A stretch of DNA of 64,000 bases from Neorhizobium galegae. Lineage in GTDB: Bacteria > Pseudomonadota > Alphaproteobacteria > Rhizobiales > Rhizobiaceae. The stretch lies in NCBI RefSeq assembly GCF_021391675.1, contig NZ_CP090096.1, forward strand, positions 558,001 to 622,000, written 5' to 3'. The stretch's first letter is position 1. The number at the start of each line of letters is the position of its first letter. This document shows positions 9,562-54,142 of this stretch, piece by piece. Both the position numbers and the translations under genes were made by a program. Below the pieces are notes generated by a model, which searched no databases, was not told the origin of the DNA, and saw nothing but the letters and a program-made list of their open reading frames with translations.

Positions 9562-10971
9562 ATGAACGCGGTGACGGCGCAAAGAGCCTCTCAAGTGGGC
9601 GAGGAGCGAAAACCACTTCGGATATTGTCCGAGTGGGCGGCCGGTGCCTGCAACTTCAGTCCGCTTGCCTACCGTCGCGGTGAAGACGCGTTCTCGGATA
9701 TCACTGCGTGTATGATCGCCGGAATGAATGACGTTTCGACCCGTTCCGTCGTCAACGTGATAGCGGAAGATGGCCTGGGGCAATGCTTCGCGTTTGGAGC
9801 ATCCGGCAGAGTGAGCGCGCCCTGGGCGGCCCTGATCAATGGAACCGCGGCGCATGCGCTTGATTTCGACGACAATTTTGCGCCCGCCTTTACCCATGCG
9901 ACGGCGGTCCTCGCTCCCGCGCTTTTATCTCTGGTGAATGGTCGCAGGATCGATGGGACCGCGCTTATCGACGCATTCATCGTCGGGCTGGAACTCCAGG
10001 GGCGCATTGGCCGCCTCATGCAGCCTGCTCACTACGAGCGCGGCTGGCATTCCACCTCGACGATCGGAGCTATCGGCACTGCCGGAGCTTGCGCGCGGCT
10101 GCTTGGCGCCACTCCGGACCAGGTGCTCGCAGCAATGAGCGCGGCAACCAGCATGGCTGCCGGTTCGAAGCTGCAATTCGGTTCCATGATAAAGCCGATC
10201 CATGCCGGGCTTGCCGCGAAGAATGCCGTTCTTGCGGCTCGGTTCGCCATGGCGGGTATCAGCGCAAATGACGACCCTCTTGTTGGCGACTGGGGTTTTG
10301 CGGCGATGACCGGGGCGGGCAACATCGGTGGCGAAGTCATGATCGAGGGTCTCGATGAGACGCTGGAAATCGAGACGAGCGGTTTGCTCGCAAAGCGTTT
10401 TCCTTGCTGCGGGGCGGTCCATCGTAGCGTGGATGCCTTGGAAGTCCTGCAGAGAGAGCCGGGCTTTTCGCTGGAGGCGATCGACCGGATCGAGACGTCT
10501 CTGCCCGAGATGGCAAAACGGAACCTTCGCTTCGACTGTCCCGCCGATGAAATGGAAGCGCGGTTCAGCGGCACCTATTGCATGGCGCGAATGCTGGTCG
10601 ACGGAGGGCTGGAACTCAAGCATTTCACGCCGGAAAGCGTGCGGGATGAGCGGATTGCCGCGTGGCTGTCTCGCATCCGCCTGATCGCTTACGACAATGC
10701 TCTGATGGTCGACGGCGCGAATTTCGAGGCGACCACACGGGTCTATCTGAAGGACGGCGGGGTCATGGAGGCGACGGTCAGCCATCCGAAAGGTTCGCCG
10801 GAGAACCCGCTGAACGAGGACGATCTGCGGGCAAAATTTCAGACCTGCTGTGCCTGGAGCGGCCACGCGGCAGCGGCCGAACCGCTTTTCGAACTCGCCA
10901 GGGCGTTGGGAGCGGCAATCGACGTCGGTGAAGTCATGGCGGGGTTCGAAAGGACCCTGCGCATCCAATAA
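9562..10971 (+). CDS. MmgE/PrpD family protein, locus A
   Basis: I prefer ATG 9562, with GGGA seven bases upstream; ATG 9550 and an earlier in-frame start at 9493 are alternatives. The 469-residue protein carries family hallmarks NGTAAHALDFDDNF (about 93-106), GWHSTSTIGAIGTA (about 160-174), KPIHAGLAAKNAVLAARF and a C-terminal lid. The family includes 2-methylcitrate dehydratase (PrpD), aconitate decarboxylase and many members of unknown activity. No other methylcitrate-cycle gene is nearby; it leads an operon for a peptide-type ABC importer. Propionate metabolism is therefore unlikely and the reaction is open. It closely resembles the locus C copy at 42052. Confidence 0.9.
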   Translation: MNAVTAQRASQVGEERKPLRILSEWAAGACNFSPLAYRRGEDAFSDITACMIAGMNDVSTRSVVNVIAEDGLGQCFAFGASGRVSAPWAALINGTAAHALDFDDNFAPAFTHATAVLAPALLSLVNGRRIDGTALIDAFIVGLELQGRIGRLMQPAHYERGWHSTSTIGAIGTAGACARLLGATPDQVLAAMSAATSMAAGSKLQFGSMIKPIHAGLAAKNAVLAARFAMAGISANDDPLVGDWGFAAMTGAGNIGGEVMIEGLDETLEIETSGLLAKRFPCCGAVHRSVDALEVLQREPGFSLEAIDRIETSLPEMAKRNLRFDCPADEMEARFSGTYCMARMLVDGGLELKHFTPESVRDERIAAWLSRIRLIAYDNALMVDGANFEATTRVYLKDGGVMEATVSHPKGSPENPLNEDDLRAKFQTCCAWSGHAAAAEPLFELARALGAAIDVGEVMAGFERTLRIQ

Positions 10972-11005
10972 CCTGCCCATCCGGGCCAATCGGTAAAAAG
11001 GGAAC

Positions 11006-11033
11006 GTCTTCGAAGAAATACAAATACGAAGAC
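11006..11033. other. Stem-loop before the locus A solute-binding-protein gene
   Basis: Seven-base arms GTCTTCG and CGAAGAC enclose a 14-base loop, 17 bases before the solute-binding-protein start. It lies in the leader of the intercistronic gap; the role is not known. Confidence 0.35.
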
Positions 11034-11050
11034 AGAAATGGAGTGAAATC

Positions 11051-12631
11051 ATGAATTTCGTGAAAACCAGGCTGGCCGCTTCGGCCGCTTTCCTTCTTGT
11101 GGGTGCATTGTCTCTTTCTGCCGCGGATCTGAAGATCGGCGTCAAATCGGAGCCGTCTTCGCTCGATCCCCAGTTCCACGTTCTCGTGCCGAACATGCAG
11201 GTGACCTTCGCCATGTTCGATCCGCTTGTAATGATGGACCCGAAGCTGGTGCCCAAGCCGGCGCTGGCCGAGAACTGGAAGGCGACCAGCGATACTGTCT
11301 GGGAATTCGCGTTGCGGAAGGATGCAAAGTTCTCAGACGGCTCGCCGCTGACCGCCGATGACGTGGTTTTCACCTTCGATCGCATTCCCAAGGTTCCGAA
11401 CAGCCCGACGGCTTTCACGCTGTTCACCCGTCAGATCGCCAAGGTCGAGGCAGCAGATGCGCACACGGTGCGCATCACCACAAAGCAGCCTTATCCCCTG
11501 CTGGTCACTGATATTGCCAACCTGCCGATCCTCTCGAAGGCGGCAGCATCCGGCCCGGCTCCGGAAGGCAAGACGACCGTCGAGTTCAACCGCGGCGAAG
11601 GACTTGTCGGCACCGGCCCGTTCAAGTTCGTTTCCTGGCAAAAGGGCGCAGATCTGATTCTGGAGCGCAATCCGAACTATTGGGGCAAGCCCGCGGCATG
11701 GGACAAGGTGATCTATCGCCCGATGACCAATCCGGCGGCCCGCGCCGCTGCCCTCCTGTCCGGCGACATCGACATGATGGAAGACCCGCCGACAACGGAC
11801 CTGGAGCAGTTCAAGACGAACCCCAAGCTGTCGGTCGCGGAAGCCCCCGGTACGCGTATCGTCTACATCGCCCTGGACCAGAAGGGCGAACCAAGCCCCG
11901 GCATTCCCGGCCAGGGCAACAAGAACCCGCTGATGGACAAGCGGGTCCGCGAAGCGCTTTCGCTGTCCATCGATCGCAAGGCAATCGCCGAACGGGTGAT
12001 GGGCGGCGTCGCCGTCGCCACGGGAGACCTGCTACCCGAGCCGATGTTCGGCGCGGTCAAGGCACGCCAGGCCGCACCGGTGGTCGACACTGCCAAGGCC
12101 AAGGCCCTGCTTGCGGAAGCCGGCTATCCCAACGGCTTCCAGATCACGCTCGGCACTCCGAACGGCCGCTATGTCAACGACGCCCGCGTCGCCCAGACGA
12201 TTGCCGCCATGTGGACGCGTGCCGGCGTCAAGGCCGAAGTCGCCGCCGCCGCTCCGCCGGTGTTCTTCAAGAGCCGCGACAATTTCGAATACAGCGCTTA
12301 TCTCGCCGCCTGGGGCAATTCCACCGGGGAGATGTCCACGACGCTGCGGTCGCTGGTCGGAACCCGCGAGCCGTCCAAGGGGTCGGGCACGTCGAACGGC
12401 GGGCGTTATTCCAATCCTGAACTCGACGCGCTTCTCGACAAGGCATCCGCCACGATGGACGACAAAGCCCGCAAGGAGCTGCTGCAGAAGGCCGACGAGA
12501 TGGTTCTGTCCGACTACGGTATCATTCCGGTACATTTCGAAGTGCCGGTCTGGGCGCTGCGCAAGGGCCTGACCTACGCTGCCCGCGCCGATCAGTATAC
12601 CCTGCCTCAGGACGTCGCGTCCGCGAAGTAA
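11051..12631 (+). CDS. ABC transporter substrate-binding protein, family 5 (peptide type), locus A
   Basis: The start has a GGAGTG ribosome-binding site. A Sec signal peptide (residues 1-24, core FLLVGALSLS) precedes a mature domain typical of DppA/OppA-type proteins: SEPSSLDPQFHVL near the N-terminus, FDPLVMMDPKLVPKPALAENW, and RVREALSLSIDRKAI near residue 300. The product is 526 residues, normal for family 5. It delivers a solute, probably a di- or oligopeptide or another amide, to the permeases that follow. The mature protein has no N-terminal lipobox cysteine, so it should be soluble in the periplasm. Confidence 0.93.
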   Translation: MNFVKTRLAASAAFLLVGALSLSAADLKIGVKSEPSSLDPQFHVLVPNMQVTFAMFDPLVMMDPKLVPKPALAENWKATSDTVWEFALRKDAKFSDGSPLTADDVVFTFDRIPKVPNSPTAFTLFTRQIAKVEAADAHTVRITTKQPYPLLVTDIANLPILSKAAASGPAPEGKTTVEFNRGEGLVGTGPFKFVSWQKGADLILERNPNYWGKPAAWDKVIYRPMTNPAARAAALLSGDIDMMEDPPTTDLEQFKTNPKLSVAEAPGTRIVYIALDQKGEPSPGIPGQGNKNPLMDKRVREALSLSIDRKAIAERVMGGVAVATGDLLPEPMFGAVKARQAAPVVDTAKAKALLAEAGYPNGFQITLGTPNGRYVNDARVAQTIAAMWTRAGVKAEVAAAAPPVFFKSRDNFEYSAYLAAWGNSTGEMSTTLRSLVGTREPSKGSGTSNGGRYSNPELDALLDKASATMDDKARKELLQKADEMVLSDYGIIPVHFEVPVWALRKGLTYAARADQYTLPQDVASAK

Positions 12632-16609: not shown

Positions 16610-17857
16610 ATGCAAACCTTCAAAACCGCCCCGCTCGCCGGAGACACTGCGATCCCGGCGCTCCTCGCCAGCGCGTCTTTTCGCGCTGTGATAAACTCTC
16701 TCGCCCAGACGCATGAGCGTTTCATCAGCGAGCTAGTGACGCTCACCGAAATTCCGGCGCCCCCCTTCAAGGAAGAGGCTCGTGGGCAGGCATACCGGGA
16801 CATGCTCGAAGCTGCCGGGCTGGAGGACGTCGCGATCGATTCCATCGGCAATGTCATGGGAGTTCGCCGGGGCAACACTTCGGGCGGTCGCATGATCGCG
16901 GTTTCCGCTCACCTCGATACCGTGTTTCCCGAGGGTACCGATGTTGCCGTCCGGCGCGATGGCTTTCATCTTTCCGCGCCGGGCGTGGGCGACAACACCC
17001 GTGGCCTTGCCACCATCCTGGCCTATCTCCGCGCTCTCGATTCTGCCGGAATAGAGACTCGGGACGATATTCTTGTTCTGGCGAGCGTTGGCGAGGAAGG
17101 CGAAGGCGATCTACGTGGCATGCGGCACTTCTTTGCCAACAGCGCCTATCGTGACCGCATTGCGGCTCTCGTATGCCTTGATGGTCCGACGCCGGCCAAT
17201 ACCATCGTTTCCGCGGGAACGGGATCGAAGCGCTACCGGGTCACCTTCCGAGGACCGGGCGGCCACAGTTTTGCGGACCATGGAATCGTCAATCCGATGA
17301 TTGCCGCAGCCCGTGCCGTTGTCGAGCTTGGACGCCTGTCCTTGCCGGACGACCCGAAGACCACGTGCAGTTCCACGGTCATCAAGGGTGGCAGTTCCGT
17401 CAATGCCATCCCCGCGGAGGTTTCGCTGATGGTGGACCTGCGTTCCAATTCGGCATCCGAGCTGGCAGATCTCGATACTCGCTTTCGCGAGATCGTGTTG
17501 CAGTCCTGCCATGTCGAGAACGATAGCCGTTCGATCGAGAAGGGCTCAATTGCAGTCGAGATCGTGCTGATCGGCGATCGGCCGGCCGGGGTCACCGCCG
17601 ACGGTGAGCTGACGCGGTCTGCGGCGGCTGCCATCACAGCGATTGGCCAGAGCCCGGTGTTCAGCTCGTTTTCGACGGATGCCAATGTCGCCATGAGCCT
17701 CGGTGTTCCGACCGTTACCCTTTCGTGGGGAGGGAAGGGTGGCGACGCCCATACGCTGAACGAGTGGACGGACGTGGATCCGGCGACGACCCTTCCCGAA
17801 ATGTCCGTCGGACTGGCCGTGCTGCTCGCCTGCGCAGGCACCGATATTCTTAAGTGA
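16610..17857 (+). CDS. M20-family metallopeptidase (PepT-like), locus A
   Basis: The start at 16610 lies two bases after the ATPase stop, so it is in the same operon. The 415-residue protein shows the di-metal site of M20 enzymes: SAHLDTVFPEG (His, Asp), GVGDNTRGLA (bridging Asp), VGEEGEGDLRG (catalytic and ligand Glu) and a final His in GGDAHTLNEW. A dimerisation lid (GPGGHSFADHG) sits between the halves. There is no signal peptide, so it should act in the cytoplasm on the imported substrate, cutting a peptide or N-acyl bond. Confidence 0.9.
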   Translation: MQTFKTAPLAGDTAIPALLASASFRAVINSLAQTHERFISELVTLTEIPAPPFKEEARGQAYRDMLEAAGLEDVAIDSIGNVMGVRRGNTSGGRMIAVSAHLDTVFPEGTDVAVRRDGFHLSAPGVGDNTRGLATILAYLRALDSAGIETRDDILVLASVGEEGEGDLRGMRHFFANSAYRDRIAALVCLDGPTPANTIVSAGTGSKRYRVTFRGPGGHSFADHGIVNPMIAAARAVVELGRLSLPDDPKTTCSSTVIKGGSSVNAIPAEVSLMVDLRSNSASELADLDTRFREIVLQSCHVENDSRSIEKGSIAVEIVLIGDRPAGVTADGELTRSAAAAITAIGQSPVFSSFSTDANVAMSLGVPTVTLSWGGKGGDAHTLNEWTDVDPATTLPEMSVGLAVLLACAGTDILK

Positions 17858-17864
17858 TCGAGGA

Positions 17865-19334
17865 ATGACTGATATGCACGACGACCGGGCTGAGGCGACA
17901 CGGCGGAATGACGTTCTCGACGCCGACCATATTTCACGCTGCGCCGACGCCAAAGCTCAGGCCTTCATCGATCTCAGCGATCGCGTTTGGGGCATGCCGG
18001 AGCTGCGTTTCGAGGAATTCCGCTCGGTCGAGGAGCATATTGCCGCCATGGAAGCGGAAGGTTTCCGTGTCACTCGCGGCATTGCAGGAATGAAAACCGC
18101 TTTCATGGCCGAGGCAGGCGAGGGTGACGTCACGATCGGGTTCCTGGGGGAGTTCGACGCTCTGGCCGGGCTTTCACAGGAAGCCGGCATCACGGAACAG
18201 CGGGCTGCCGAGCCGGGCGCCAACGGCCACGGATGCCATCACAATCTCCTGGGCGCGGCCTCGCTTCTTGCGGCGGTCGCGCTGCGTGATGTCTTGGCCG
18301 AGAGCGGTGTGAAAGCACGGGTTCGGTATTATGGATGCCCTGCCGAAGAAGGGGGATCGGGCAAGACATACATGGTGCGCGCAGGCGCATTTGATGATCT
18401 TGATGCCGCCTTCTGCTGGCACCCTTGCGTATACAACGCCGTCATGTCCTCCTCGACGCTCGCCAATATCCAGGCCTATTTCCGCTTCAGCGGGCGCGCG
18501 GCGCATGCCGCGATGAGCCCGCAGGTCGGTCGCAGCGCTCTCGATGCCGTCGAGCTGATGAATGTCGGCATCAACTATATGCGCGAGCACATGCCCTCGG
18601 ACGCGCGTGTACATTATGCAATTACCCAGACGGGCGGCATTTCTCCCAATGTCGTGCAGGCTTCCGCGGAGGGCCTCTACCTGGTCCGTGCGCCGAAGCT
18701 CGGCGATGTCCGCAGTCTTTTCGAGCGGGTGCGCAAGATCGCCGAAGGCGCTGCGCTGATGACGGAGACGAAGGTCGAGATGGTTTTTGACCGCGCCACT
18801 TCGAATATCCTCCCGAACCGGGCCCTGGAGGAGGCGATGCATCGGCAGTTCGAGAGACTGGGTGCCCCCGGCTTCGATGCGGCGGACTTCGACTTCGCCG
18901 ACAGGTTACGCGCCGCCGCATTGACGGATGACGACGTCCGCGCGAGCGCCGAAGCCTTTGGCGGACCAGCCGATTATCCGAAATCCCTGCATGACGGGAT
19001 TCTGCCGCTGCCGGAACAGCCCGGCCTGCTCTTCGGTTCGACGGATGTGGGCGATGTCAGCTGGGTCGTACCCACTGCGCAGTGCCTGACGGCGACCGCG
19101 GCGATCGGCACGCCGTTCCATGCCTGGCAGACCGTGACCCAAGGCAAGCTACCGGCCGCCCACAAGGCCCTGGTCACGGCCGCCAAAGTGATGGCGGCAA
19201 CCGGTGCCAGGGTGATCGCCGATCCGGAATTGCTGTCGCGCGCCAAGAACGAACTACGTGCACGGCGCGGTGGCCGGGTGTATCAGAGCCCGCTCCCGGA
19301 AGGCAGCGAGCCGCCAACCGGGGCCGGGCGATAG
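17865..19334 (+). CDS. M20D-family amidohydrolase (AbgB-like), locus A
   Basis: Starts at 17865 or 17874 are possible. The 489-residue protein matches the p-aminobenzoyl-glutamate hydrolase subunit B/amidohydrolase group: GEFDALAGLSQEAG, CPAEEGGSGKTYM, a WHP motif, GRAAHAAMSPQVGRSALDAV in the lid, and TPFHAWQT near the end. The usual metal motif GHGCGHN reads GHGCHHN here, with His replacing Gly beside the Cys and His ligands. Relatives split amide bonds of N-acyl amino acids. It is a paralogue of the locus C enzyme at 49905 and closes the locus A operon. Confidence 0.9.
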   Translation: MTDMHDDRAEATRRNDVLDADHISRCADAKAQAFIDLSDRVWGMPELRFEEFRSVEEHIAAMEAEGFRVTRGIAGMKTAFMAEAGEGDVTIGFLGEFDALAGLSQEAGITEQRAAEPGANGHGCHHNLLGAASLLAAVALRDVLAESGVKARVRYYGCPAEEGGSGKTYMVRAGAFDDLDAAFCWHPCVYNAVMSSSTLANIQAYFRFSGRAAHAAMSPQVGRSALDAVELMNVGINYMREHMPSDARVHYAITQTGGISPNVVQASAEGLYLVRAPKLGDVRSLFERVRKIAEGAALMTETKVEMVFDRATSNILPNRALEEAMHRQFERLGAPGFDAADFDFADRLRAAALTDDDVRASAEAFGGPADYPKSLHDGILPLPEQPGLLFGSTDVGDVSWVVPTAQCLTATAAIGTPFHAWQTVTQGKLPAAHKALVTAAKVMAATGARVIADPELLSRAKNELRARRGGRVYQSPLPEGSEPPTGAGR

Positions 19335-19355: not shown

Positions 19356-19750
19356 TCACCTGGTCGCCGGCAGCTCGTCGATCTCTCGGACGATCTGTCG
19401 AGCCTTGCCGACCACTGCGCGCGCCGTCTTGATAATGGCATCGATGCCTATCCTGCCGAGATCCTCGGCATGGATCACGGTCATGCCGCTCGCGTCGGAA
19501 AACTCCCAGAGATACTGCGCCGCACCGTGAATGCCGATCTGGACCACGCGGGTGGGATCGAGACGCCGTCGAGAACCGCGTTACGGAACGGGCCACCGTG
19601 GTGGCAGTTGGTAAGATCATAGGCGCCGCCGGTGTCGCAATGGGCATTGATGTGGATCATCCCGACGGAACGGTCCCGACCAAGGTCCATCGGTATGCCG
19701 ATCAGGGCGACGTCGAGATCACCCAGGTCAGGCTGGATGGCACCGACGGG
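19356..19750 (-). pseudogene. Agmatinase/ureohydrolase remnant
   Basis: Three pieces of an arginase/agmatinase-family enzyme remain in order on the minus strand. First is LDVALIGIPMDLG (to about 19678). It is joined directly to MIHINAHCDTGGAYD, losing about 100 residues. HHGGPFRNAVLDGV follows, with a one-base loss near 19561. The second frame then continues VVQIGIHGAAQYLWEFSDA and GMTVIHAEDLGRIGIDAI, and leaves the family after VVG near 19406, so the segment with the last metal ligands is gone. It overlaps the end of the deacetylase gene. Its presence suggests guanidino-nitrogen release was once part of this operon. Confidence 0.75.
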
Positions 19751-22015: not shown

Positions 22016-22056
22016 GAGAAAACTCTGAAATAAAGGGAAGGCCGGCAACGTCAACG

Positions 22057-44539: not shown

Positions 44540-45321
44540 GCCACCGCCTCGTCACGCCTCGCGACGGCCTCGATCGTGGCCTGCAGGAACTCGCGGGTAT
44601 AGTCTTCCTTGGCTTGCGACTGGCGGATCTGATGCGAGGTCAGTTCCTCGATGATCTTGCCCTTGTGCATCATGCCGGCGCGCTCGCAGATATGGGCGAT
44701 GACGGCGAGATCGTGCGACACCATGAGGTAGGTAAGGTTACGCTCGATCCGCAGCCGCCTCAGAAGGTTGAGGATTTCCGCCTGCACCGAGACGTCGAGC
44801 GCCGAGGTCGGTTCGTCGAGCAGCAGGATTTCCGGCTCGGTGATCAGCGCCCGGGCGATCGCAACGCGCTGCCGCTGACCACCGGAAAGCTCGTGCGGGT
44901 AACGATAGCGGAAGGACGGCCCGAGGCCCACGGCATCGAGCGTTTCGGTAATGCGCTCGGAGGCTCGGTCGATGCCGTGGATGGCAAGCGGTTCGGCCAG
45001 AACCTTTTCGACGATCTTGCGGGGGTGGAGGCTGCCATAGGGGTCCTGGAACACCATCTGCACTCGGCGGAAGAAATCTTTGCTCCGCGTCTTCGGCAGT
45101 TCCTTGTCGGCCAGCGTCAAAGCACCGTCATAGTCGCCGTTGAGCCCGCTCAAGGCCCGCAGGATCGTCGACTTGCCGCAACCGGATTCGCCGATCAGGC
45201 CATAGGCCTCACCCTTGTTGATCCGGAACGATACGTCGTCCACGACGCGGGTGCGGGCATGTTTAGGGCCAAAACTGATCGAAAGACCAACGGCCTCGAT
45301 CAGCGGTCTCGTCGGTTTCAT
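44536..45321 (-). CDS. ABC transporter ATP-binding protein (DppF-like), locus C
   Basis: The 261 residues carry Walker A GESGCGKST, Q-loop MVFQDPYGSLHPRKIV, signature [15 protein letters not shown] and Walker [14 protein letters not shown]. It is shorter than the locus A DppF and lacks the C-terminal cysteine segment. Overlaps both neighbours by four bases. Confidence 0.93.
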   Translation of the reverse strand: MKPTRPLIEAVGLSISFGPKHARTRVVDDVSFRINKGEAYGLIGESGCGKSTILRALSGLNGDYDGALTLADKELPKTRSKDFFRRVQMVFQDPYGSLHPRKIVEKVLAEPLAIHGIDRASERITETLDAVGLGPSFRYRYPHELSGGQRQRVAIARALITEPEILLLDEPTSALDVSVQAEILNLLRRLRIERNLTYLMVSHDLAVIAHICERAGMMHKGKIIEELTSHQIRQSQAKEDYTREFLQATIEAVARRDEAVA

Positions 45322-46184
45322 GCGAGCGCTCCATTGCGATAGACGGGGCCGTCGAGCCAGCTTGGGTCCCGAACCGGCACCGTGAGGTTTTCAACGGCGA
45401 CATCAAGCCGTGGCAGGCTTTCGAGCAGCGATTGCGTATAAGGGTGCCGGGCATTGTGCAGTTCGCTCGCCGGCAGATCTTCCATGATCCGGCCGGCATA
45501 CATGACCAGAACCCGGTCGCAGAAGCTGGCAACGAGATTGAGGTCGTGGCTGATGAACATCAGGCCGGTGCCACGGCGGGTGACCAGTTCGTCGAGGATG
45601 GTCAGAACTTGCCGGCGCACCGTCACATCGAGGGCGGAGGTCGGTTCGTCGGCGATGATGAGATCCGGCTCGGGGATCAGCATCATGGCAATCATGATGC
45701 GTTGGCCCATGCCGCCCGACACTTCGTGCGGGAAGAGCTTGAACACCCGGTCCGGATCGCGGATCTGCACTGCTTCCAGCATGGCCAGCGCCTTTTCCTT
45801 CGCCTCGGCCGGCCGCGCCTTGTGATGCAGGCGATAGGCCTCGACGATCTGGTTGCCGATCCGCATCAGCGGATTGAGCGAGTATTTCGGATCTTGGAGA
45901 ATCATCGAAATATGGTTGCCGCGGATCTTGCGCATCTCCCTTTCGCTGGCGGACAGAAGGTCGATATCCTTGAAGCGCATATGCGTTGCGCTGATCTCCG
46001 CGCCCTTCGGCGTCAGCTTCAGGAGCGACCGGCCGGTCAGCGATTTTCCCGAGCCGGATTCGCCGACGATGCCGACCTTTTCGCGGCCGATGGTGAACGA
46101 GACGCCGCGCACGGCATCATGGCTGCGCTGCGCGCCGTGGAAGCGGATCCTCAAGTCCTTGACGTCGATGAGCGGCTTATCCAT
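45318..46184 (-). CDS. ABC transporter ATP-binding protein (DppD-like), locus C
   Basis: ATG 46184 (MDKPLIDVKDLRIRF) overlaps the end of the permease gene. The 288 residues include Walker A GESGSGKS, Q-loop MILQDP, signature VSGGMGQRIMIAMML and Walker [15 protein letters not shown]. The signature VSGGM departs slightly from LSGGQ, as is common in DppD. Partner of the preceding ATPase. Confidence 0.92.
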   Translation of the reverse strand: MDKPLIDVKDLRIRFHGAQRSHDAVRGVSFTIGREKVGIVGESGSGKSLTGRSLLKLTPKGAEISATHMRFKDIDLLSASEREMRKIRGNHISMILQDPKYSLNPLMRIGNQIVEAYRLHHKARPAEAKEKALAMLEAVQIRDPDRVFKLFPHEVSGGMGQRIMIAMMLIPEPDLIIADEPTSALDVTVRRQVLTILDELVTRRGTGLMFISHDLNLVASFCDRVLVMYAGRIMEDLPASELHNARHPYTQSLLESLPRLDVAVENLTVPVRDPSWLDGPVYRNGALA

Positions 46185-47118
46185 GGCGGGGATCCAGAAT
46201 GTCGCGCAGGCCATCGCCGAGAAGATTGAAGGCGAGGCTGGTCAGGAGGATGGCGGTGCCGGGAATGGCGGCGATCCACCAGCTGGTCATCACGAATTCG
46301 CGGCCGGAGGACAGCATCGTGCCCCATTCCGGGCTCGGCGGCTGGGCGCCAAGCCCGAGAAAGCCGAGGCCGGCAGCGGTAAGAATGATGGCTGCCATGT
46401 TGAGCGTGACGCGCACCACTACCGATGGAATGCACATGGGCATGATGTGTCCGAAGATGATGCGCGCACTGGATGCACCCTGAAGGCGCATGGCGGCGAT
46501 GTAATCGGACTTGCGGATCGTCAGCGTTTCGGCGCGCGCCAGCCGGGCGATCGGCGGCCAGGAGGCGAGCGAAATGGCGATGATGGCATTCTGGATGCCC
46601 GGTCCGAGCGCTGCGACGAAGGCCAGCGCCAGGATGAGGTTCGGGAAGGCCAGAAACACATCGACGATGCGCATCAGCACCGTATCGACCCAGCCGCCGA
46701 GATAACCTGCCGTGGTACCGACGATGAGCCCGATCGGCGCGACGATGACGGTCGTCAGAAGCGCGATGTAGAGAGTGATGCGAGCACCGAAAAGCAGACG
46801 GCTATAGACGTCGCGACCGAGTTCGTCGGTGCCGAGCCAATGCTGGAAGGAGGGCGCCAGCAGCCGCGCCGCAAGGTCCTGCTCGTAGATATCATGCGTC
46901 GCCAGAATGGGCGCAAGCAACGCCGCGACGAGCATGACGACGACGACGCAAAGGCCGAACAGCGCCGACGCGTTGGACCGCAGCCGCCGCCATTGCAGCC
47001 AAAGCTGCTGCATGCGGGCATGAAAGGGCGAAGTCGGAACCGGCGCCCGCAGCCAGAGACCGAGGCTACCGGACGAAGCGGCGATCTTTGCGGTCCGGGA
47101 AAGGGATTTGTCTGTCAT
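46177..47118 (-). CDS. ABC transporter permease (DppC-like), locus C
   Basis: The 313-residue protein has the DppC pattern: HWLGTDELGRDVYSRLLFGAR, AGYLGGWVDTVLMRIVDVFL, EAA loop KSDYIAAMRLQGAS and AAGLGFLGLGAQPPSPEWG. The N-terminal 45 residues are cytoplasmic. It lies eight bases after the DppB-like gene. Confidence 0.93.
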   Translation of the reverse strand: MTDKSLSRTAKIAASSGSLGLWLRAPVPTSPFHARMQQLWLQWRRLRSNASALFGLCVVVVMLVAALLAPILATHDIYEQDLAARLLAPSFQHWLGTDELGRDVYSRLLFGARITLYIALLTTVIVAPIGLIVGTTAGYLGGWVDTVLMRIVDVFLAFPNLILALAFVAALGPGIQNAIIAISLASWPPIARLARAETLTIRKSDYIAAMRLQGASSARIIFGHIMPMCIPSVVVRVTLNMAAIILTAAGLGFLGLGAQPPSPEWGTMLSSGREFVMTSWWIAAIPGTAILLTSLAFNLLGDGLRDILDPRHG

Positions 47119-47125
47119 GGCTGCC

Positions 47126-48202
47126 TCACCGGGTTCTGGGGTCGAAGACGCGATAGAGGAGGTCGCAGATGAGGTTGAGGGTCACGAAGATGACACCGAC
47201 CAGAAGCGAGCAACCGACGACGGCATTCATGTCACCGACGAGAAGCGCGTTGGTCAGATAACGGCCAAAGCCGGGCCAGGCGAACACCGTTTCGGTCAGC
47301 ACGGCGCCTTCGAGCAGGAAAGCATAGGATAGCGCCACCACGGTGAGCACCTGAACCGCGACGTTGCGGAACGCGTGCACCCAGACGGTGCGTGCCCAGG
47401 ACAGGCCCTTGACGCGGGCCGTGACGATATATTCCTGCGCGAGCTGCTCGATCATGAAGCTGCGCGTCATGCGGCTGATATAGGCAAGTGCGCCGAAGCC
47501 GAGGATCGAGGCAGGCAGGATGATATGGCCGAAGACGTTGCGGAATATCTCCCAGTTGCCGGCAAGTGCGCTGTCGATCAGATGGAAACCGGTGACCGGC
47601 TCGAGATCGAACTCATAGATGAAGTCGATGCGCCCCGGCCCGCCGATCCAGCCGAGCGTCGCGTAGAACAGCACCAGTCCCATCAGGCCGAGCCAGAAAT
47701 TCGGCGCCGAATAGCCGATCAGGCCCGTGAAGCGGATGGCATTGTCGAGCCAGGAATTGCGGTACATGGCCGACAGCACGCCGGCGGGAATGCCAAGCCC
47801 CGTGCCGATGACGATTGCCAGCGTGGCAAGCTCGATGGTGGCCGGAAACACGCGGGCGATGTCTTGCATCACGGGCTTGCCGGTGGTCAGCGCGTCGCCG
47901 AAATCGAGCGACAGGATACCCTTCACGTAGACGCCGAACTGGTACCAGAGCGGCTTGTCCATGCCGAGCGCGCGAGACATCTTCTCATAGGCTTCCTGCG
48001 TGGCATTGTCGCCGAGGATGGAAGCGACGGGATCGATCGGCAGCATCCTGCCGATGAAGAATGTCAGGGCCGCAAGGCCGAACAGCGTCACGAACACCGG
48101 CAATAGCGTCCTGCCGAGAATGCTCAGCAGGGCGAATGCCGGGTTCGGCCTGGCCACGTTCCCCGCATCGCTGCGGGGAACCGGGAAGGTGGGGTCCGTC
48201 AT
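47126..48202 (-). CDS. ABC transporter permease (DppB-like), locus C
   Basis: The 358-residue membrane protein has FGLAALTFFIGRMLPIDPV (TM1), ALGMDKPLWYQFGVYVKGIL, EAA loop QEYIVTARVKGLSW and TVFAWPGFGRYLTNALL near the C-terminus. It follows the solute-binding-protein gene by 13 bases and pairs with the DppC-like subunit. Confidence 0.93.
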   Translation of the reverse strand: MTDPTFPVPRSDAGNVARPNPAFALLSILGRTLLPVFVTLFGLAALTFFIGRMLPIDPVASILGDNATQEAYEKMSRALGMDKPLWYQFGVYVKGILSLDFGDALTTGKPVMQDIARVFPATIELATLAIVIGTGLGIPAGVLSAMYRNSWLDNAIRFTGLIGYSAPNFWLGLMGLVLFYATLGWIGGPGRIDFIYEFDLEPVTGFHLIDSALAGNWEIFRNVFGHIILPASILGFGALAYISRMTRSFMIEQLAQEYIVTARVKGLSWARTVWVHAFRNVAVQVLTVVALSYAFLLEGAVLTETVFAWPGFGRYLTNALLVGDMNAVVGCSLLVGVIFVTLNLICDLLYRVFDPRTR

Positions 48203-48215: not shown

Positions 48216-49826
48216 TTATTTGGAGACGAGGTCGTAATAGACGCGGAAGCCGTTCCAGGTCCAATCCTTGACCTTACCGCTCATGCCGACGGTATTGTAC
48301 ATCTGGAACATGATGGCCATCGGGCCCTGTTGCATGACGTCCTTCTGCAGCGCGTAATAAAGTTCGTTGCGCTTGGCCGGATCGCCTTCCAGAAGTGCTG
48401 CCTTCACCTGCTTGTTGAAGTCCTCGTTCTGGTAGGCGGAGCGCCAGGCCGGGATCTGGGTCAGCTTGGCTTCCGGACGGTTGTCGGGATTATAGACCAG
48501 ACGCGAGGCATTGCCGTGCGCATCCGGGACGCCGGTCTGCCAGGCCAGCATGCCGGTCTGGAACTCGCGGCCACGGATACGGGCAAAGAGCTGGGCATTG
48601 GCCATCCGCTCGAGGTTGAGCTTAACGCCGACCTTGGAGGCGTTCTGCTGGATGCTCTGGGCGATCGGTGCCGAATGCGGCAAGGTGCCAATCAGCACGT
48701 TCGCTTCGAAGCCATCCGGATACCCGGCCTCGGTCAGCAGCGCCTTGGCCTTCTCGATATCGAGCTTGAACGGCTGGCCTTCCTTGGTATCGAGAGCCCC
48801 GGTGGCGCCGAGCTGGGCAAAGCTTGCCCGCGGCACGCCGAGATAGGTCATGACCGACTTGGCAAGACCGTCGTAATCGATCAGGTAACGCATCGCCAGA
48901 CGCACTTTTTCGTTCTTGAAGATCGGGTCGGCGGCGTTGAAGGTCCAGAAAAACAGCTGTGGCTTCAGCACGCGCTCAACCTTCAAGCCAGGCTTGCCGT
49001 CGAGATCGGCAAGATCGTCGGGCGACAGGTCGCGGGCAATATCAATGTCGCCCTGGGTCAACAGCAGGCGCTGCGTGCCCGGCTCGGCGACGTGACGGAT
49101 CAGGATGCGCTTCAGCTTCGGCTTGGCGCCGTAATAGTCCTCGTTAGCCTGTAGCACGATGGACTCGCCGGAGTTCCACTGCACCAATTTGTAGGGACCG
49201 ACGCAGGCCGTGTTGGTGGCGAGGTATTTGTTGCCCATGTCGCCATTGATCTCCTTCGAGATCAGCGTCTTCTGGTCGAGGAGCGCCGACACGCGATTGG
49301 CGCCGATGGCCTGCAGGATGAGGTTGGTCGGATAGGGATTATCCAGCGACAACACGAGCGTGTTGTCGTCGGTCGCGGAGATACGTTCCTTCACGTTGTC
49401 CTTGCTGAAGCCGTATTCGGTCAGCGTTGCGGCATTGCCGTAACCGAGCAGCACGACGCGCTGCATCGACCAGGCCAATTCCTTCGCCGTCGCCGGGGCG
49501 CCGCCTGGGAATTTCAGGCCGGTATTGAGATGGAAGGTGATCTGCTTGCGGTCTTCGGACACATCCCAGCTTTTCGCGAGAAGCGGTAAGGCCTTGGACT
49601 CGTCCTTCGGATCGAAATCCACCAGGGAATCGCAGGTGTTTTGCATCAGCTCGCTGGTCACGACTTCGCCGATCTGCGCCGGATCGAAGGTGCTGATGGC
49701 ATCGATATTCCACGCCATGACAAGCGCCGTGTCCGGCGTTGCAGCCCGCGCCGGCAGGCTGATCGAGGCCGACAGGGCCGCGACGGCAGCAAGATAGCTG
49801 ATCTTGGAAATGCTTCTGGTAATCAT
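48216..49826 (-). CDS. ABC transporter substrate-binding protein, family 5 (peptide type), locus C
   Basis: ATG 49826 follows AAAGGGAACG; a frame from 49901 would add 25 polar residues before the signal peptide. Signal peptide to about residue 28 (ISLPARA). The mature part has AWNIDAISTFDPAQIGEV, VLSLDNPYPTNLILQAIGA and EKVRLAMRYLIDYDGLAKS. Length 536. It should bind the substrate that the three cytoplasmic hydrolases of this operon process. Confidence 0.93.
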   Translation of the reverse strand: MITRSISKISYLAAVAALSASISLPARAATPDTALVMAWNIDAISTFDPAQIGEVVTSELMQNTCDSLVDFDPKDESKALPLLAKSWDVSEDRKQITFHLNTGLKFPGGAPATAKELAWSMQRVVLLGYGNAATLTEYGFSKDNVKERISATDDNTLVLSLDNPYPTNLILQAIGANRVSALLDQKTLISKEINGDMGNKYLATNTACVGPYKLVQWNSGESIVLQANEDYYGAKPKLKRILIRHVAEPGTQRLLLTQGDIDIARDLSPDDLADLDGKPGLKVERVLKPQLFFWTFNAADPIFKNEKVRLAMRYLIDYDGLAKSVMTYLGVPRASFAQLGATGALDTKEGQPFKLDIEKAKALLTEAGYPDGFEANVLIGTLPHSAPIAQSIQQNASKVGVKLNLERMANAQLFARIRGREFQTGMLAWQTGVPDAHGNASRLVYNPDNRPEAKLTQIPAWRSAYQNEDFNKQVKAALLEGDPAKRNELYYALQKDVMQQGPMAIMFQMYNTVGMSGKVKDWTWNGFRVYYDLVSK

Positions 49827-49904: not shown

Positions 49905-51335
49905 TCAGGCGGCCTCCTTCGGACGCGGCTGCAGCGGCGGGTTGACGTCCGGCGGGATCGGGCAAACGTAAGACGTCTTGCCCAAACGCGCCTGATGGTC
50001 CGCCTTGGCCGCAGCCAGTAACTGGCTGTCGCTGAGAAGATCGATGGCGGTGCCGGCCATCATTTTCGCGGCATGGGTCATGCCTTTATGGGCAGCAGCC
50101 GTCTTGCCCTGCGCCGTCACCTGCCAGGAATGGCCAGGCGTACCGATGGCGATAGTCGCGGCATGCGCCTGCACGGTCGGCATCAACCAACTGACATCGC
50201 CGACATCCGTCGACCCGATCATCGGTTCGCCATCGACATCCAGCGGCACGATGAAGTCGCAGAGCGGGGTTTCCTCCTTGCGCGGCAGGCCGACGCGAAG
50301 ATAGGCGTTGTCGATATCCTCCTCGCTGAGCGTTGCCTGGATCTGTGCCGCAAACGCCTTGTCTTCCGCATCGAAAGGGACGGGCCCGAGCCGATCCAGA
50401 TTGCGCTGCATCACCTCTTCCAACGGGCGGTTGGCCAACAGGTTGGAAACCGCACTCATGATGGAGATATCGACCGTCGTTCCGGTCATCATTGCCGCGC
50501 CCAGCGCCACCTGTTTGACTCGCTCGTTGAGATCCAGCATGCCTTTGAGGTCCCGCGAGCGGATCGCATACCGCACCGCCGACTTTGCCTGCACGACGTT
50601 CGGGGCAATCCCGCCAGAATCGAGCATGGCATAATGGATACGGCTGGAATCCGGCACGTGTTCGCGCAGGTAATTGACCCCGACATTCATCAGTTCGACG
50701 GCATCCAGCGCGGAGCGACCGAGATGCGGCGCCGCGGCAGCGTGCGAGGATCGGCCGGTGAAGCGAAAATCCATCCGGGTATTGGCGAGCGACAGGGCTT
50801 TGGCGACCTCGGTAAAGGCGCTCGGATGCCAGGTGATGGCCGCATCGACGCCGTCGAACGCGCCTTCGCGCGCCATGAACGACTTCGCCGCTCCGCCCTC
50901 TTCCGCCGGGCAGCCATAATAGCGCACCCGGCCAGGCTTGCCGGACTGGGCCAGCCAGTCCTTGATCGCCGTCGCGGCCAGCATCGCTGCTGAGCCGAGC
51001 AGGTTATGACCGCAGCCATGCCCGTGACCGTTGCCGGGCAAAGGCTTCGGTTCGGCGATGCCTGCCTCCTGGCTCAGGCCCGGCAGCGCATCGTATTCGC
51101 CGAGAATGGCGATGATCGGCCCGCCCTTGCCTGCCTCGCCCATCACCGCGGTGGGGATGCCCGCGACGTTTTCGGTGACGCGAAAGCCCTGTTCCCGGAG
51201 CATGGCGGCGTGTTCGGCAACCGAGGCGTATTCCGTATAGGCGATTTCTGGCATGCCCCAGACACGGTCGCTCAGGGCGACGAATTCCGCCCTGTGCTCG
51301 TCCACCAGATCCCAGATTCGCTCGCTATTCTGCAT
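49905..51335 (-). CDS. M20D-family amidohydrolase (AbgB-like), locus C
   Basis: ATG 51335 follows GGAGA; a start at 51377 would overlap the S9 peptidase gene. The 476-residue enzyme has GEYDALPGLSQEAG, intact GHGHGCGHNLLG metal motif, CPAEEGGAAKSFM and GRSSHAAAAPHLGRSALDAV. It is a clear paralogue of the locus A enzyme, but here the motif is the normal CGH. It hydrolyses an amide bond in the cytoplasm, as N-acyl amino acid or AbgB-type enzymes do. Confidence 0.92.
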   Translation of the reverse strand: MQNSERIWDLVDEHRAEFVALSDRVWGMPEIAYTEYASVAEHAAMLREQGFRVTENVAGIPTAVMGEAGKGGPIIAILGEYDALPGLSQEAGIAEPKPLPGNGHGHGCGHNLLGSAAMLAATAIKDWLAQSGKPGRVRYYGCPAEEGGAAKSFMAREGAFDGVDAAITWHPSAFTEVAKALSLANTRMDFRFTGRSSHAAAAPHLGRSALDAVELMNVGVNYLREHVPDSSRIHYAMLDSGGIAPNVVQAKSAVRYAIRSRDLKGMLDLNERVKQVALGAAMMTGTTVDISIMSAVSNLLANRPLEEVMQRNLDRLGPVPFDAEDKAFAAQIQATLSEEDIDNAYLRVGLPRKEETPLCDFIVPLDVDGEPMIGSTDVGDVSWLMPTVQAHAATIAIGTPGHSWQVTAQGKTAAAHKGMTHAAKMMAGTAIDLLSDSQLLAAAKADHQARLGKTSYVCPIPPDVNPPLQPRPKEAA

Positions 51336-51360
51336 TTCGAAGTCTCCATACGGCTTGATG

Positions 51361-53169
51361 TCAAAGGTGTTTTTCAAGGAACCGGGCGAAGGCAGAAAAC
51401 GCCTTTAAGCGGTTTTCCCGGCGCGCAAAGCCATGCCCCTCGTGGTCGATGCGCAGGTATTCGCAATCGTGGCCGAGACCGCTCAGGCACGAATAGACGT
51501 CTTCACTCTGCCCCATCGGCACGCGGGGGTCGCGGTTGGCGTGGACGATCAGAAGCGGCGCCTTCATCCGGGCGATCCGGTTGATCGGCGAAAACCGCTC
51601 CAAAGCGTCGCGCATGACGGATGGTTCGCCATATTCGGCGGCCCGCTGCTGCCGGCCCCAAGGGCCGGTCGCAAGAAGATGGGTCAGGAAATTCCCGACA
51701 CCGTAGAAATCCACGCCGAGTTTCCAGAGTTTGGGATCTTCGGTCAGCGCCGACAGAACCATGAAGCCGCCATAGGAGCGGCCGAACACGCCGATACGGC
51801 TGTCATCCACATCCGCTCGCGCCCCGATGGCGAGCCGGATCGCCCGCAGGTCGGCCACCGAATCCAGACGCTTTTCGCGGTCGTCGAGCTCGTGGAAGGC
51901 ACGGCCATAGCCGGTGCTGCCGCGCACGTTCGGTGCCACCACCATGACACCCTGCGAAACGAGAAACTGGACGTCGGCGCGGAAATCCGGCTTCCACTGC
52001 ATTTCCGGCCCACCATGCACGATGAAAAGAACAGGGTAACCGGCGGCAGGCGCCGGCGAGGATGGTGTGTAGACGAAGGCCGGTATCAGCCGTCCGTCAA
52101 AACTTTCAAAGCGTTCGACCACCGGCTCCCGGAAGGATACGACGTCCAGCCCCAATGTGTCGGAAGCGACCGTCAGTTCGAAACGCCCGCTGGCCAGATC
52201 TAGCCTCCAGATGCCCGGCGGTGTCGCCGCCCCTTCAAGCGGGAAGACCAGCGACTGGCCGTCCGGCGTGAATGCGACGGAGGTGATGACCCCGACCGGC
52301 TGCCCTTCGAATGACCGCATATCGCTGCCGTCACGGTTGCACAGGCCGATGCGGCTCCAGCCGTCTTCGTTGGAGACGTAGGCAATGCGCTGCTGGTCGG
52401 GCGACAGGGCCACGGCTTCGATATCCCGGTCGGAAAGCTCGACCAAGGGTGCGACGCTGCCGTCTTCGGCAGCAAACCGGCAAATAGCCATGAAATCGCG
52501 GCCCTGGTCGCAGACGGCCACGCCGCCGCTGCCGTCCTTGAACAGCCGTGCCGCAAGATAACGGGCTTTCCCGGCATGCGGCATGATCGGCGTTAGTTCG
52601 CCGCTGGCAATCTCCAGCCGATACATGTCCTGATCGTTGCCGGAGCGTAGCGATTCCCGCACCAGCAAAGCGTTTCCGTCGGGGAAGAAGGCAAGTGCCT
52701 CGCGCATACCGATGCCGGCAAAGACTGTCGACGCCTCGCGCGTCGTCACATTCATGACGTGGATGTCCATGTCATAAGGGGAACGAGCGTTGGACGCATA
52801 GGCGATCCGCTCACCCTCCGGAGACCAGGCGCCCCAGATATGCACGACACCCGGCGCCTGCGTCAGCGCGACGGGTTGGGCTTCGATGTCCGGCAAAAGC
52901 CAGAGCTGATGCCGCTCGTCACCGCCGCAATCCATGGTGAAGAGGATTCCCGGTCCCTTCGGATTGAAGGCGAATGCGCCGATGGGTTCGGGCATGGCGG
53001 TAACCTGCCGTGCCGGCCCGCCGGCGAATGGCCTGACCCACAGCTGGCTGAAGCCGGTGGCATTCGAGAGATAGGCAAGCCATTGGCCGTCGGGCGACAC
53101 GGCCGGCGATTTGACGGACTGGATCTCCAGGAACGGAGCGATGGTTTCAGCCTCAAACGACGACGTCAT
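51361..53169 (-). CDS. S9-family serine peptidase (prolyl oligopeptidase/acylaminoacyl peptidase type)
   Basis: ATG 53169 follows GGAGGG, which lies in the end of the upstream gene. The 602-residue protein has a WD-like propeller of about 350 residues (SPDGQWLAYLS, SPEGERIAYAS, SPDQQRIAYVS repeats) that gates a C-terminal alpha/beta hydrolase. Catalytic residues are Ser in GRSYGGFM, Asp in ANRDPRVPMGQ and His in DHEGHGF. No signal peptide. It cuts short peptides or N-acyl peptides after import. Confidence 0.92.
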   Translation of the reverse strand: MTSSFEAETIAPFLEIQSVKSPAVSPDGQWLAYLSNATGFSQLWVRPFAGGPARQVTAMPEPIGAFAFNPKGPGILFTMDCGGDERHQLWLLPDIEAQPVALTQAPGVVHIWGAWSPEGERIAYASNARSPYDMDIHVMNVTTREASTVFAGIGMREALAFFPDGNALLVRESLRSGNDQDMYRLEIASGELTPIMPHAGKARYLAARLFKDGSGGVAVCDQGRDFMAICRFAAEDGSVAPLVELSDRDIEAVALSPDQQRIAYVSNEDGWSRIGLCNRDGSDMRSFEGQPVGVITSVAFTPDGQSLVFPLEGAATPPGIWRLDLASGRFELTVASDTLGLDVVSFREPVVERFESFDGRLIPAFVYTPSSPAPAAGYPVLFIVHGGPEMQWKPDFRADVQFLVSQGVMVVAPNVRGSTGYGRAFHELDDREKRLDSVADLRAIRLAIGARADVDDSRIGVFGRSYGGFMVLSALTEDPKLWKLGVDFYGVGNFLTHLLATGPWGRQQRAAEYGEPSVMRDALERFSPINRIARMKAPLLIVHANRDPRVPMGQSEDVYSCLSGLGHDCEYLRIDHEGHGFARRENRLKAFSAFARFLEKHL

Positions 53170-53173
53170 CCGA

Positions 53174-54142
53174 TCACACCCTCCGGCATTCAAGCGCGTT
53201 GACCGCGACAAGCTTGCCGCGCAGCCGCTCGGAGGCGTTTTTCAGCTCTTCGAAAAGCGGACCTTTGGTCGATTGATGATTGGCTTCCGTGACGATCGAG
53301 AAGCCGGCTTCCGGCCAGGCCCGATAGAGCTGCCAGGCGGACGCCATCGGGGTCACCGTATCATACCGTCCCTGGACGATCTCGCAGGGCAGGTGGCAGA
53401 TCCGGCCGATATCGCGAAGCAGCTGGCCCGGAGCGAGAAACGCGCCGTGCATGCAGTAATGCGTAAACAGCCGGGCAACGGCGAGCGCGGCAGTCGGCTC
53501 CATCAGGGCTGCGACATGGCCGGGGTCCGGCAGAAATGTCTGGGTCTTGGCGGAAAAGCCTCGCAGGCTGAGCGCCGCGGCCACCTCTTCATGGGCATTG
53601 CCGCTGGTCAGCCGCCGGTAGTAGGCCGACAGGAGATTGCCACGCTCGGCTTCGGGAATGAAGGCCGCAAATTCCTCCCACTGATCCGGAAAAATGGCCC
53701 GCACACCATTGAACCACCAGTCGATATCCTCCTTGCCGGCGAGGAAAATGCCGTGAAGGCGAAAGCCGAGGCAGTGGTCGGGATACGCCTCCCCATAGGC
53801 CAGCGCCAGGCAGCTGCCCCAGGATCCGCCGGAAACCAGCCATCTGTCGATGCCGAGATGGTCTCGCAGCAATTCCATGTCGGCGACCAGGGCCGTCGTC
53901 GTGTTGCCGTCGAGATTCGCATGCGGCGTCGACCGGCCGGCGCCGCGCTGATCGAAGATAACGATCCGAAACGTAGAGCGGTCAAAGGTTTCAACCTGCT
54001 TCAGGGACATGCCAGCACCTGGCCCGCCGTGAAGAACAACGACAGGGATACCCTCAGGATTGCCATGCTCCTCGACATAGAGGCTCCGAACCTCGTCCAC
54101 CGGGAGATAGAAGCTCCGTTCACCCTGCTGCTGCGACTGCAT
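53174..54142 (-). CDS. Proline iminopeptidase-like alpha/beta hydrolase
   Basis: The 322-residue S33-type enzyme has HGGPGAG (38-44, oxyanion hole), DQRGAGRSTPHA, nucleophile Ser107 in GGSWGSCLAL, Asp in GRYDTVTPM and His in ANHQSTKG. These match prolyl aminopeptidases; amide hydrolysis of other small substrates is possible. It is the first gene of the minus-strand locus C string, directly preceded by inverted repeats. Confidence 0.9.
   Translation of the reverse strand: MQSQQQGERSFYLPVDEVRSLYVEEHGNPEGIPVVVLHGGPGAGMSLKQVETFDRSTFRIVIFDQRGAGRSTPHANLDGNTTTALVADMELLRDHLGIDRWLVSGGSWGSCLALAYGEAYPDHCLGFRLHGIFLAGKEDIDWWFNGVRAIFPDQWEEFAAFIPEAERGNLLSAYYRRLTSGNAHEEVAAALSLRGFSAKTQTFLPDPGHVAALMEPTAALAVARLFTHYCMHGAFLAPGQLLRDIGRICHLPCEIVQGRYDTVTPMASAWQLYRAWPEAGFSIVTEANHQSTKGPLFEELKNASERLRGKLVAVNALECRRV

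Follow-up and report, generated by a model that had tools for sequence, protein, structure and literature searches.

According to the available sections of PMC12290011, the majority of MmgE/PrpD homologues are uncharacterised, and the characterised members named there share a 1,4-dicarboxylate substrate and protonation or deprotonation at C2. The same sections describe a mechanism with two bases, His and Tyr, for IDS epimerase and for methylsuccinate isomerase, and a one-base route for cis-aconitate decarboxylase, leaving the route open for 2-methylcitrate dehydratase. The accessible part of PMC7347537 presents IDS epimerase as a member of the MmgE/PrpD family whose substrate is an N-substituted aspartate. 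Here we analysed a 64,000-nucleotide stretch of Neorhizobium galegae DNA, hereafter the window (G000:C2:558001-622000, in a genome of 6.05 Mb and three contigs), which contains three of the four MmgE/PrpD genes of this genome, the fourth being located at C2:993531. We take PDB entries 2HP0 and 2HP3 to be the IDS epimerase of Agrobacterium tumefaciens BY6, presumably paired with a stereoselective C-N lyase.

The three window genes, MmgE1 (9562..10971, + strand), MmgE2 (20624..22054, - strand) and MmgE3 (42052..43410, - strand), encode both Pfam domains PF03972 and PF19305 above the curated cut-offs. Each sits in a co-directional string with an ATP-binding cassette (ABC) importer (Pfam and NCBIfam), composed of SBP_bac_5 and DppBCDF in operons 1 and 3 and of SBP_bac_3, one permease and one ATPase in operon 2. 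A first-pass annotation had listed these genes, each with an importer (two of dipeptide type and one of polar amino-acid type) and with hydrolases or a lyase, had noted the absence of a methylcitrate-cycle partner at all three loci, and had pointed to a DDNF motif common to MmgE1 and MmgE3 and a DDAGG motif in MmgE2. Pfam, domain content and a motif check bore this out, with no methylcitrate-cycle partner among the 30 window open reading frames (ORFs) scanned with Pfam, to which the search was confined. Its further suggestion of three repeats of one plan did not hold, as MmgE2 falls in another clade, is served by another importer type and has no M20 gene in its string. The window holds two unrelated kinds of operon, not one unifying plan. 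We tentatively propose, with slightly less than even confidence, that both kinds scavenge nitrogen and that their MmgE/PrpD proteins would be stereo-correcting enzymes acting on 1,4-dicarboxylate (aspartate-like) compounds. Gene content, conservation, clades and residues were computed, and from these we infer all substrates, reaction directions and epimerase activity. The nearest named relative among plasmid records, N. galegae CP090555, carries all three genes (93% identity for MmgE1, 87% for MmgE2 and 99% for MmgE3).

Operon 2 reads, on the - strand, ArgH2 (an argininosuccinate-lyase-like C-N lyase, 24677..26137), a single permease (23808-24680), a polar-amino-acid-type ABC ATPase (23028-23798), an SBP_bac_3 substrate-binding protein (SBP3, 22120..22947), MmgE2 and an amidohydrolase of the CE4 (polysaccharide-deacetylase) family (19728..20612), with a LysR regulator divergent from it (26275..27189, + strand); apart from ArgH2, which is treated below, these were identified with Pfam (184 bits for MmgE2). 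The MmgE2 start at 22054, a TTG, is probably too far upstream, and a start at 22015 yields 463 amino acids, the length of many close relatives.

We scanned 84,980 species genomes with MmgE2, yielding 165 confirmed loci, and retained the best 80, a selected and uneven set because it is made of the closest relatives, with Pseudomonas (26 loci), Burkholderia and Caballeronia forming much of it. Counting as linked any gene located within 7.5 kb of MmgE2 on the same strand, we found CE4 in 80/80 loci, SBP in 77/80, and the permease, the ATPase and ArgH in 75/80 each; the LysR group of the window occurs in 27/80 loci and any of four LysR groups in 74/80. Operon 2 is spread over 20 named genera, which belong to the alpha-, beta- and gammaproteobacteria. 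Its order is mostly ArgH-permease-ATPase-SBP-MmgE-CE4 in alphaproteobacterial loci, and beta- and gammaproteobacterial loci mostly have two CE4 genes ahead of MmgE (two CE4 genes being present in 53/80 loci overall). Five loci have no ArgH, three of which (L091, L100 and L105) reach a contig end, and one further locus (L064) has LysR, ArgH, MmgE and CE4 genes and no importer. Across 247 genomes of the family, own genome included, MmgE2-type genes were present in 6 (E-value threshold of 1e-100), ArgH2-type genes in 9 (1e-140) and CE4-type genes in 8 (1e-80), and an ArgH-like gene was located within about 5 kb in all six MmgE2 genomes, that of genome G104 being more distant (39%). Four genomes (L258-L261) have LysR, ArgH2, permease, ATPase and SBP genes with MmgE2 and CE4 absent both nearby and elsewhere at those thresholds, and two loci of the genus (L250 and L251) have LysR, ArgH2, importer and CE4 genes without MmgE2. 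Because the importer and lyase occur without them, MmgE and CE4 look like additions to an importer and lyase core. In the open-licence literature we found neither a description of this module nor a paper joining MmgE, argininosuccinate lyase and an ABC transporter.

We aligned 87 SBP3 sequences, of which 86 come from the loci (with second SBP copies counted) and one from the window. An Arg is conserved in 87/87 and an Asp is replaced by Gly in 87/87, so that the full residue pair of polar amino-acid binding was absent. We assume that the Arg of SBP_bac_3 proteins binds the alpha-carboxylate and the Asp the alpha-amino group; going by these two positions, the operon-2 binding protein seems to reject a free alpha-amino group yet to require a carboxylate. 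ArgH2 scores 507 bits against TIGR00838 (cut-off 279.5) and is 53% identical to PDB 6IEM (500 bits) and 41% identical to the genome's own canonical ArgH, which itself scores 609 bits. It retains the GSSIMPQKKNPD stretch without the Gln. This Gln, in the motif Y-x-x-D-L-Q-E-D-K, is replaced by Ala, Ser, Gly or Ile in 75/75 operon-2 lyases of the 80 loci and by Ala or Ile in 8/8 further operon-2-type lyases that we read (L250, L251, L258-L261, L266 and L268), and is kept in 24/24 readable canonical ArgH proteins (6 of the 30 collected had no search anchor and were not read). Presumably, it contacts the arginine part of the substrate. The PDB matches of ArgH2 also include 6G3D (191 bits), which we take to be the EDDS lyase of Chelativorans sp. 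BNC1. According to the available text of PMC12363623, EDDS lyase adds amines to fumarate, giving N-substituted L-aspartates; it is likewise ArgH-related and joins fumarate and an amine, but ArgH2 is nearer to the argininosuccinate lyases. Two other ArgH-like genes stand in different company. The genome's third (307 bits; L132, G000:C1:241000-260500, 7121-13660) lies with a sugar-type binding protein, permeases, an ABC ATPase and a PfkB kinase, and not with amino-acid genes. In L269 (G001:C13:611000-629500, 3503-11604), another MmgE (30% identity to MmgE1) and another ArgH-like protein (32%) adjoin a two-permease amino-acid importer, an SIS-domain protein and a PfkB kinase, a set that serves perhaps for the breakdown of glycated amino acids.

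In the CE4 protein, D34, D36 and H109-x3-H113 are invariant in the 13 sequences compared; the window protein and those first copies that we examined retain the H-x3-H metal pattern. Its PDB matches comprise 3RXZ ("Polysaccharide deacetylase", 192 bits), the peptidoglycan deacetylase 3QBU (89 bits) and PuuE (64 bits). An assignment to the allantoinase PuuE, which has H-x3-W at this position and whose model TIGR03212 gave 73 bits for a cut-off of 424.6, finds no support. The CE4 genes of beta- and gammaproteobacterial loci stand in tandem (for instance L079, 7185-8980), and the first His of H-x3-H is lost in 6/6 second copies examined, so that the second copy may be a non-catalytic partner. Two annotated records suggested a link between operon 2 and Asp/Glu/hydantoin-type racemases, which we discarded as both racemase proteins had no match in the 80 loci. 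Separately, one locus (L262, G409:C6, 3299-15853) carries a CE4 relative by an Asp/Glu/hydantoin racemase, M20, M24 and M28 peptidases and a dipeptide-type importer, and this racemase, of another family, may have a role similar to that of MmgE.

Operons 1 and 3 follow homologous plans. Operon 1 comprises, on the + strand, MmgE1 (469 amino acids; PF03972 155 bits and PF19305 105 bits on a longer ORF from 9493), an SBP_bac_5 protein (11051..12631; Pfam 320 bits, with murein-peptide, dipeptide and oligopeptide binders among its PDB matches), DppB, C, D and F (12696-13670, 13670-14584, 14584-15582 and 15579-16607; Pfam and gene calls), a PepT/ArgE-like M20 peptidase (16610..17857; Pfam M20 79.5 bits on a longer ORF, and under the cut-off of every NCBIfam model among the best 25 of 40 matches) and an M20D-type amidohydrolase (17865..19334; TIGR01891 254 bits, above cut-off). 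A LysR-like regulator (8415..9317, - strand) is divergent from it; supported by its ORF and coding score, it lay outside the Pfam scan and was named by position and weak BLAST similarity to the other window LysR proteins. Operon 3 comprises, on the - strand, an S33 prolyl aminopeptidase (53174-54142; Pfam, and TIGR01249 309.8 bits for a cut-off of 259.75), an S9 peptidase (51361-53169; Pfam and gene call), an M20D-type amidohydrolase (49905..51377; TIGR01891 251 bits, above cut-off), an SBP_bac_5 protein (48216..49826; Pfam, with peptide, heme and agrocinopine binders among its PDB matches), the dipeptide-type permeases and ABC ATPases DppB, C, D and F (44536..48202; Pfam), a serine hydrolase of the beta-lactamase family (43502..44539; Pfam) and MmgE3 (Pfam 166 bits), and a LysR regulator (41105..42022, + strand; Pfam on a longer ORF, gene call) is convergent with it. 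Identities between the two operons are 40% for MmgE, 50% for M20D and 33% and 37% for the permeases; MmgE2 shares 28% of its residues with MmgE1 and, over 272 residues, 32% with MmgE3.

We searched 60 genomes, own genome included, with MmgE2 and found MmgE homologues in 38. We then opened 56 stretches around MmgE matches (a subset of all matches), together with 24 control stretches drawn from part of these genomes, and mapped homologues of the window proteins onto them; one MmgE stretch (L189) had no MmgE match at the threshold used. Among the loci opened, operon 1 was found again in 3 genomes (G022, G023 and G027, at L163, L170 and L174), with the same DppBCDF string, and operon 3, from M20D through MmgE, in 7 (G002, G003, G013, G015, G030, G033 and G035, at L175, L176, L178, L180, L181, L186 and L187), the serine hydrolase adjoining MmgE in 7/7 of these same-genus loci. 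MmgE2 is present at 76-84% identity in G007, G008, G018 and G023 of the same genus, where the operons mostly stand apart, G023 alone having two of them in the loci opened. A third, divergent arrangement, with MmgE against a dipeptide importer and another serine hydrolase, was seen in 5 genomes (L145, L154, L164, L169 and L173), around the genome's own fourth MmgE copy (L131) and in three R. leguminosarum or R. indigoferae records. We also opened annotated plasmid records of five genera from other families (Paracoccus, Ketogulonicigenium, Sodalis, Pantoea and Nitratireductor). M20D (69-74% identity), SBP5, DppBCDF and MmgE (54-58%) occur together in 5/5 of them, with the serine hydrolase in all but Pantoea (4/5). 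Close matches (E-value threshold of 1e-90) are rare in the order: of 249 genomes, own genome included, 4 carry MmgE1 and 3 carry MmgE3. Clusters of MmgE genes are also not uncommon in the genus, in groups of three or four spanning about 4-22 kb, with four in about 22 kb at G031:C44:245193-267398 and at G009:C1:718508-740704.

Compared with the controls, and bearing in mind that these stretches are not mutually independent, any importer was present in 29/56 MmgE stretches against 6/24 (Fisher p = 0.03), the dipeptide permease pair in 17/56 against 1/24 (p = 0.009) and the serine hydrolase in 12/56 against 0/24 (p = 0.014). M20D reached 12/56 against 1/24 (p = 0.095, not significant), and the polar-amino-acid permease showed no excess at MmgE genes (13/56 against 5/24, p = 1). 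Over all MmgE/PrpD genes, an association was thus above control for the dipeptide permease pair and not for amino-acid-type importers, and we rejected a general association of MmgE with importers as a rule, as it is weak against the control stretches.

The strong importer signal lies within clades, not over all MmgE stretches. We built a tree of 84 proteins (70 from the stretches, the 3 of the window, the own fourth copy, 8 MmgE2 relatives and 2 references). MmgE1, MmgE3 and the own fourth copy fall in one clade (support 0.999) of 20 tips, 18 of which are labelled as having a dipeptide-type importer, and MmgE2 and its 8 relatives form a separate clade (1.0). The importer label changes 13 times on the tree, where 2000 shuffles gave 36.5 changes on average and never fewer than 26; we read this as support and not as a p-value because tips are related and the labels of the window, own and MmgE2 proteins were set by hand. 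The prediction that clades would track the transporter type was in this way confirmed. In G002 (L155), three tandem MmgE genes adjoining an amino-acid importer group with IDS epimerase (0.994).

Following the residue numbering of 2hp3, His99, His150, Lys198 and Lys266 are kept in all three window proteins, which thus share with IDS epimerase His99 and the carboxylate-side His/Lys residues. The full two-base set, with Tyr145, is present in MmgE1, MmgE3 and the own fourth copy, the His/Tyr pair is kept in 18/18 dipeptide-labelled tips of their clade, and Tyr145 in 8/8 relatives on annotated plasmids. The top PDB match of MmgE2 and MmgE3 is IDS epimerase, that of MmgE1 is B. subtilis "IRG1" with IDS epimerase next, and cis-aconitate decarboxylases are also among the matches of the window proteins. 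Because the His99/Tyr145 pair is kept, racemisation or epimerisation is the best supported chemistry for MmgE1 and MmgE3; for MmgE2, which lacks Tyr145, the chemistry is less certain. The first-pass annotation had envisaged an undescribed catabolic step such as dehydration, decarboxylation or racemisation. Racemisation is the option that fits MmgE1 and MmgE3 best, but the kind of step is not wholly undescribed, IDS epimerase being known. The (S)-(R)-methylsuccinate isomerase, as presented in the available sections of PMC12290011, is likewise a 1,4-dicarboxylate MmgE/PrpD isomerase with the His/Tyr pair of MmgE1 and MmgE3; unlike them, it acts in an itaconate/methylsuccinate CoA-transferase cluster, whose partner families were not seen among the 30 window ORFs scanned.

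Operon 2 may be a variant of the known logic of IDS epimerase and C-N lyase, judging by its likeness to that system. In both, an MmgE/PrpD protein related to the epimerase of an N-substituted aspartate accompanies what we take to be a fumarate-releasing lyase, but operon 2 has a built-in importer, regulator and CE4 enzyme, and MmgE2 lies outside the IDS-epimerase clade and has no Tyr145. The importer would take up a compound that has a carboxylate but lacks a free alpha-amino group, for instance an N-substituted aspartate, and CE4 would first hydrolyse an acylated or ring-closed form. MmgE2 would then invert the succinyl carbon, making wrong-handed isomers usable, and ArgH2 would cut the N-succinyl bond to give fumarate and an amine. 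We propose N-substituted aspartates as substrates on the combined grounds of the SBP residues, the loss of the lyase Gln, the 1,4-dicarboxylate substrates of characterised MmgE enzymes and the hydrolysis of amides by CE4 enzymes, and a role of MmgE2 as an accessory protein that widens the range of usable isomers fits because syntenic operons occur without it. The dipeptide-type importers of operons 1 and 3 would take up peptides or N-acyl amino acids, which the M20-type hydrolases would cut, in operon 3 alongside the serine hydrolase and peptidases, and the His/Tyr pair of MmgE1 and MmgE3 would epimerise an aspartyl-type product for stereospecific hydrolases. The case for aspartyl epimerisation in operons 1 and 3 is weaker than that for operon 2.

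Several observations weigh against this proposal. The main one is the missing Tyr of MmgE2, which has Asn at the position of Tyr145, as do 80/80 of its relatives, and so does not show the two-base residue pattern of an epimerase. Three dipeptide-labelled tips outside the MmgE1/MmgE3 clade also have no Tyr145. Two loci, L098 and L109, have MmgE2 with two CE4 genes and no ArgH within reach, and the rule of Gln loss has an exception in G104 (L265), where the lyase next to the MmgE2-type gene reads FNKDQQESK with the Gln present. For operons 1 and 3, the stereochemistry linking M20D to an epimerase is assumed, the M20D excess over controls is the non-significant one given above, and the S9 and S33 peptidases suggest ordinary peptides, for which no 1,4-dicarboxylate enzyme is needed.

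It is possible, if rather doubtful, that MmgE2 performs a one-base dehydration or decarboxylation in the operon-2 pathway instead of an epimerisation. Such chemistry could be accommodated because the second catalytic Tyr is absent, and the one-base route that the available sections of PMC12290011 give for cis-aconitate decarboxylase, and leave open for 2-methylcitrate dehydratase, offers a precedent. Yet the motif GGCDH[ST]G, found in 79/80 MmgE2 relatives, places a Cys and an Asp by the catalytic His, where they could supply a second base, and the existence of the operon without MmgE is easier to reconcile with an accessory epimerase than with an obligatory dehydratase.

We consider it unlikely that operon 2 imports argininosuccinate (or canavaninosuccinate) and that ArgH2 is an ordinary argininosuccinate lyase of arginine catabolism. 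This would agree with the ArgH2 score against TIGR00838 and its identity to 6IEM, a true argininosuccinate lyase, and with the Gln of the L265 lyase. It would also agree with an arginase-family gene located within 7.5 kb in 11/80 loci (the one typed exceeding the agmatinase cut-off) and with opposite-strand genes shared near six Pseudomonas loci (6/80), which are DDAH- and AstA-like in the one scanned (L096). However, ordinary arginine metabolism is disfavoured by the loss of the lyase Gln and of the SBP Asp, if these residues have the roles given above, and the genome already has a canonical ArgH. An improbable alternative is that operon 2 encodes an undescribed and widespread ureido- or guanidino-succinate pathway, in which CE4 would open a hydantoin-like ring, MmgE2 would be a new racemase using Cys, Asp and His in place of the His/Tyr pair, ArgH2 would be a guanidinosuccinate (or ureidosuccinate) lyase releasing fumarate and a small amine such as guanidine or urea, and the agmatinase-family neighbour present in some genomes would take guanidine on.

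It is very unlikely that the three proteins serve ordinary carbon metabolism as 2-methylcitrate dehydratases or cis-aconitate decarboxylases. The family name, database names of relatives such as "2-methylcitrate dehydratase PrpD" and the cis-aconitate decarboxylases among the PDB matches speak for such a role, but the one NCBIfam PrpD model matched gives 34.6 bits for MmgE1 and 42.9 for MmgE3, far from its cut-off of 950, and MmgE2 has no match to NCBIfam PrpD. The 2-methylcitrate dehydratase alternative thus finds no support from models, and the lack of a methylcitrate partner among the scanned ORFs and the Tyr145 of MmgE1 and MmgE3 also argue against it. That MmgE genes land by chance beside importers, which are abundant in Rhizobiaceae, would suit the unremarkable counts of polar-amino-acid permeases and M20D and the modest excess of importers at large, but is extremely improbable as a general account and already contradicted for operons 2 and 3, the former kept across three proteobacterial classes with its order shifting and its content mostly staying, the latter recurring in the five plasmid records, and the importer labels changing half as often as in the lowest shuffle.

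A further described relative is the argH2 region of S. meliloti (SMb21094-SMb21097), which resembles operon 2; we read the full order ArgH-permease-ATPase-SBP-MmgE-CE4 in strain ml46, not in strain 1021. The available part of PMC2912261, by contrast, takes this region to encode a second argininosuccinate lyase along with an ABC transporter to which it gives no function. In the array of a tolC mutant of strain 1021 given there, SMb21094 (argH2) is down 20.7-fold and SMb21095-21097 are down 10.3- to 17.5-fold, real-time PCR gives 4.5-fold for argH2, ntrB, ntrC and glnK are also down, and the authors put the drop in nitrogen transport probably down to lower NtrC. The expression of SMb21094-21097 reported in that part of the paper fits one nitrogen-regulated unit.

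Databases often label MmgE/PrpD relatives as 2-methylcitrate dehydratase, and we offer instead a testable rule, in which clade, His/Tyr pair and importer type together predict different substrates. The lyase/epimerase pair of operon 2 could possibly be of use in making N-substituted aspartates. If found, the function of operon 2 would settle the annotation of the S. meliloti argininosuccinate lyase and explain a nitrogen-linked rhizobial operon.

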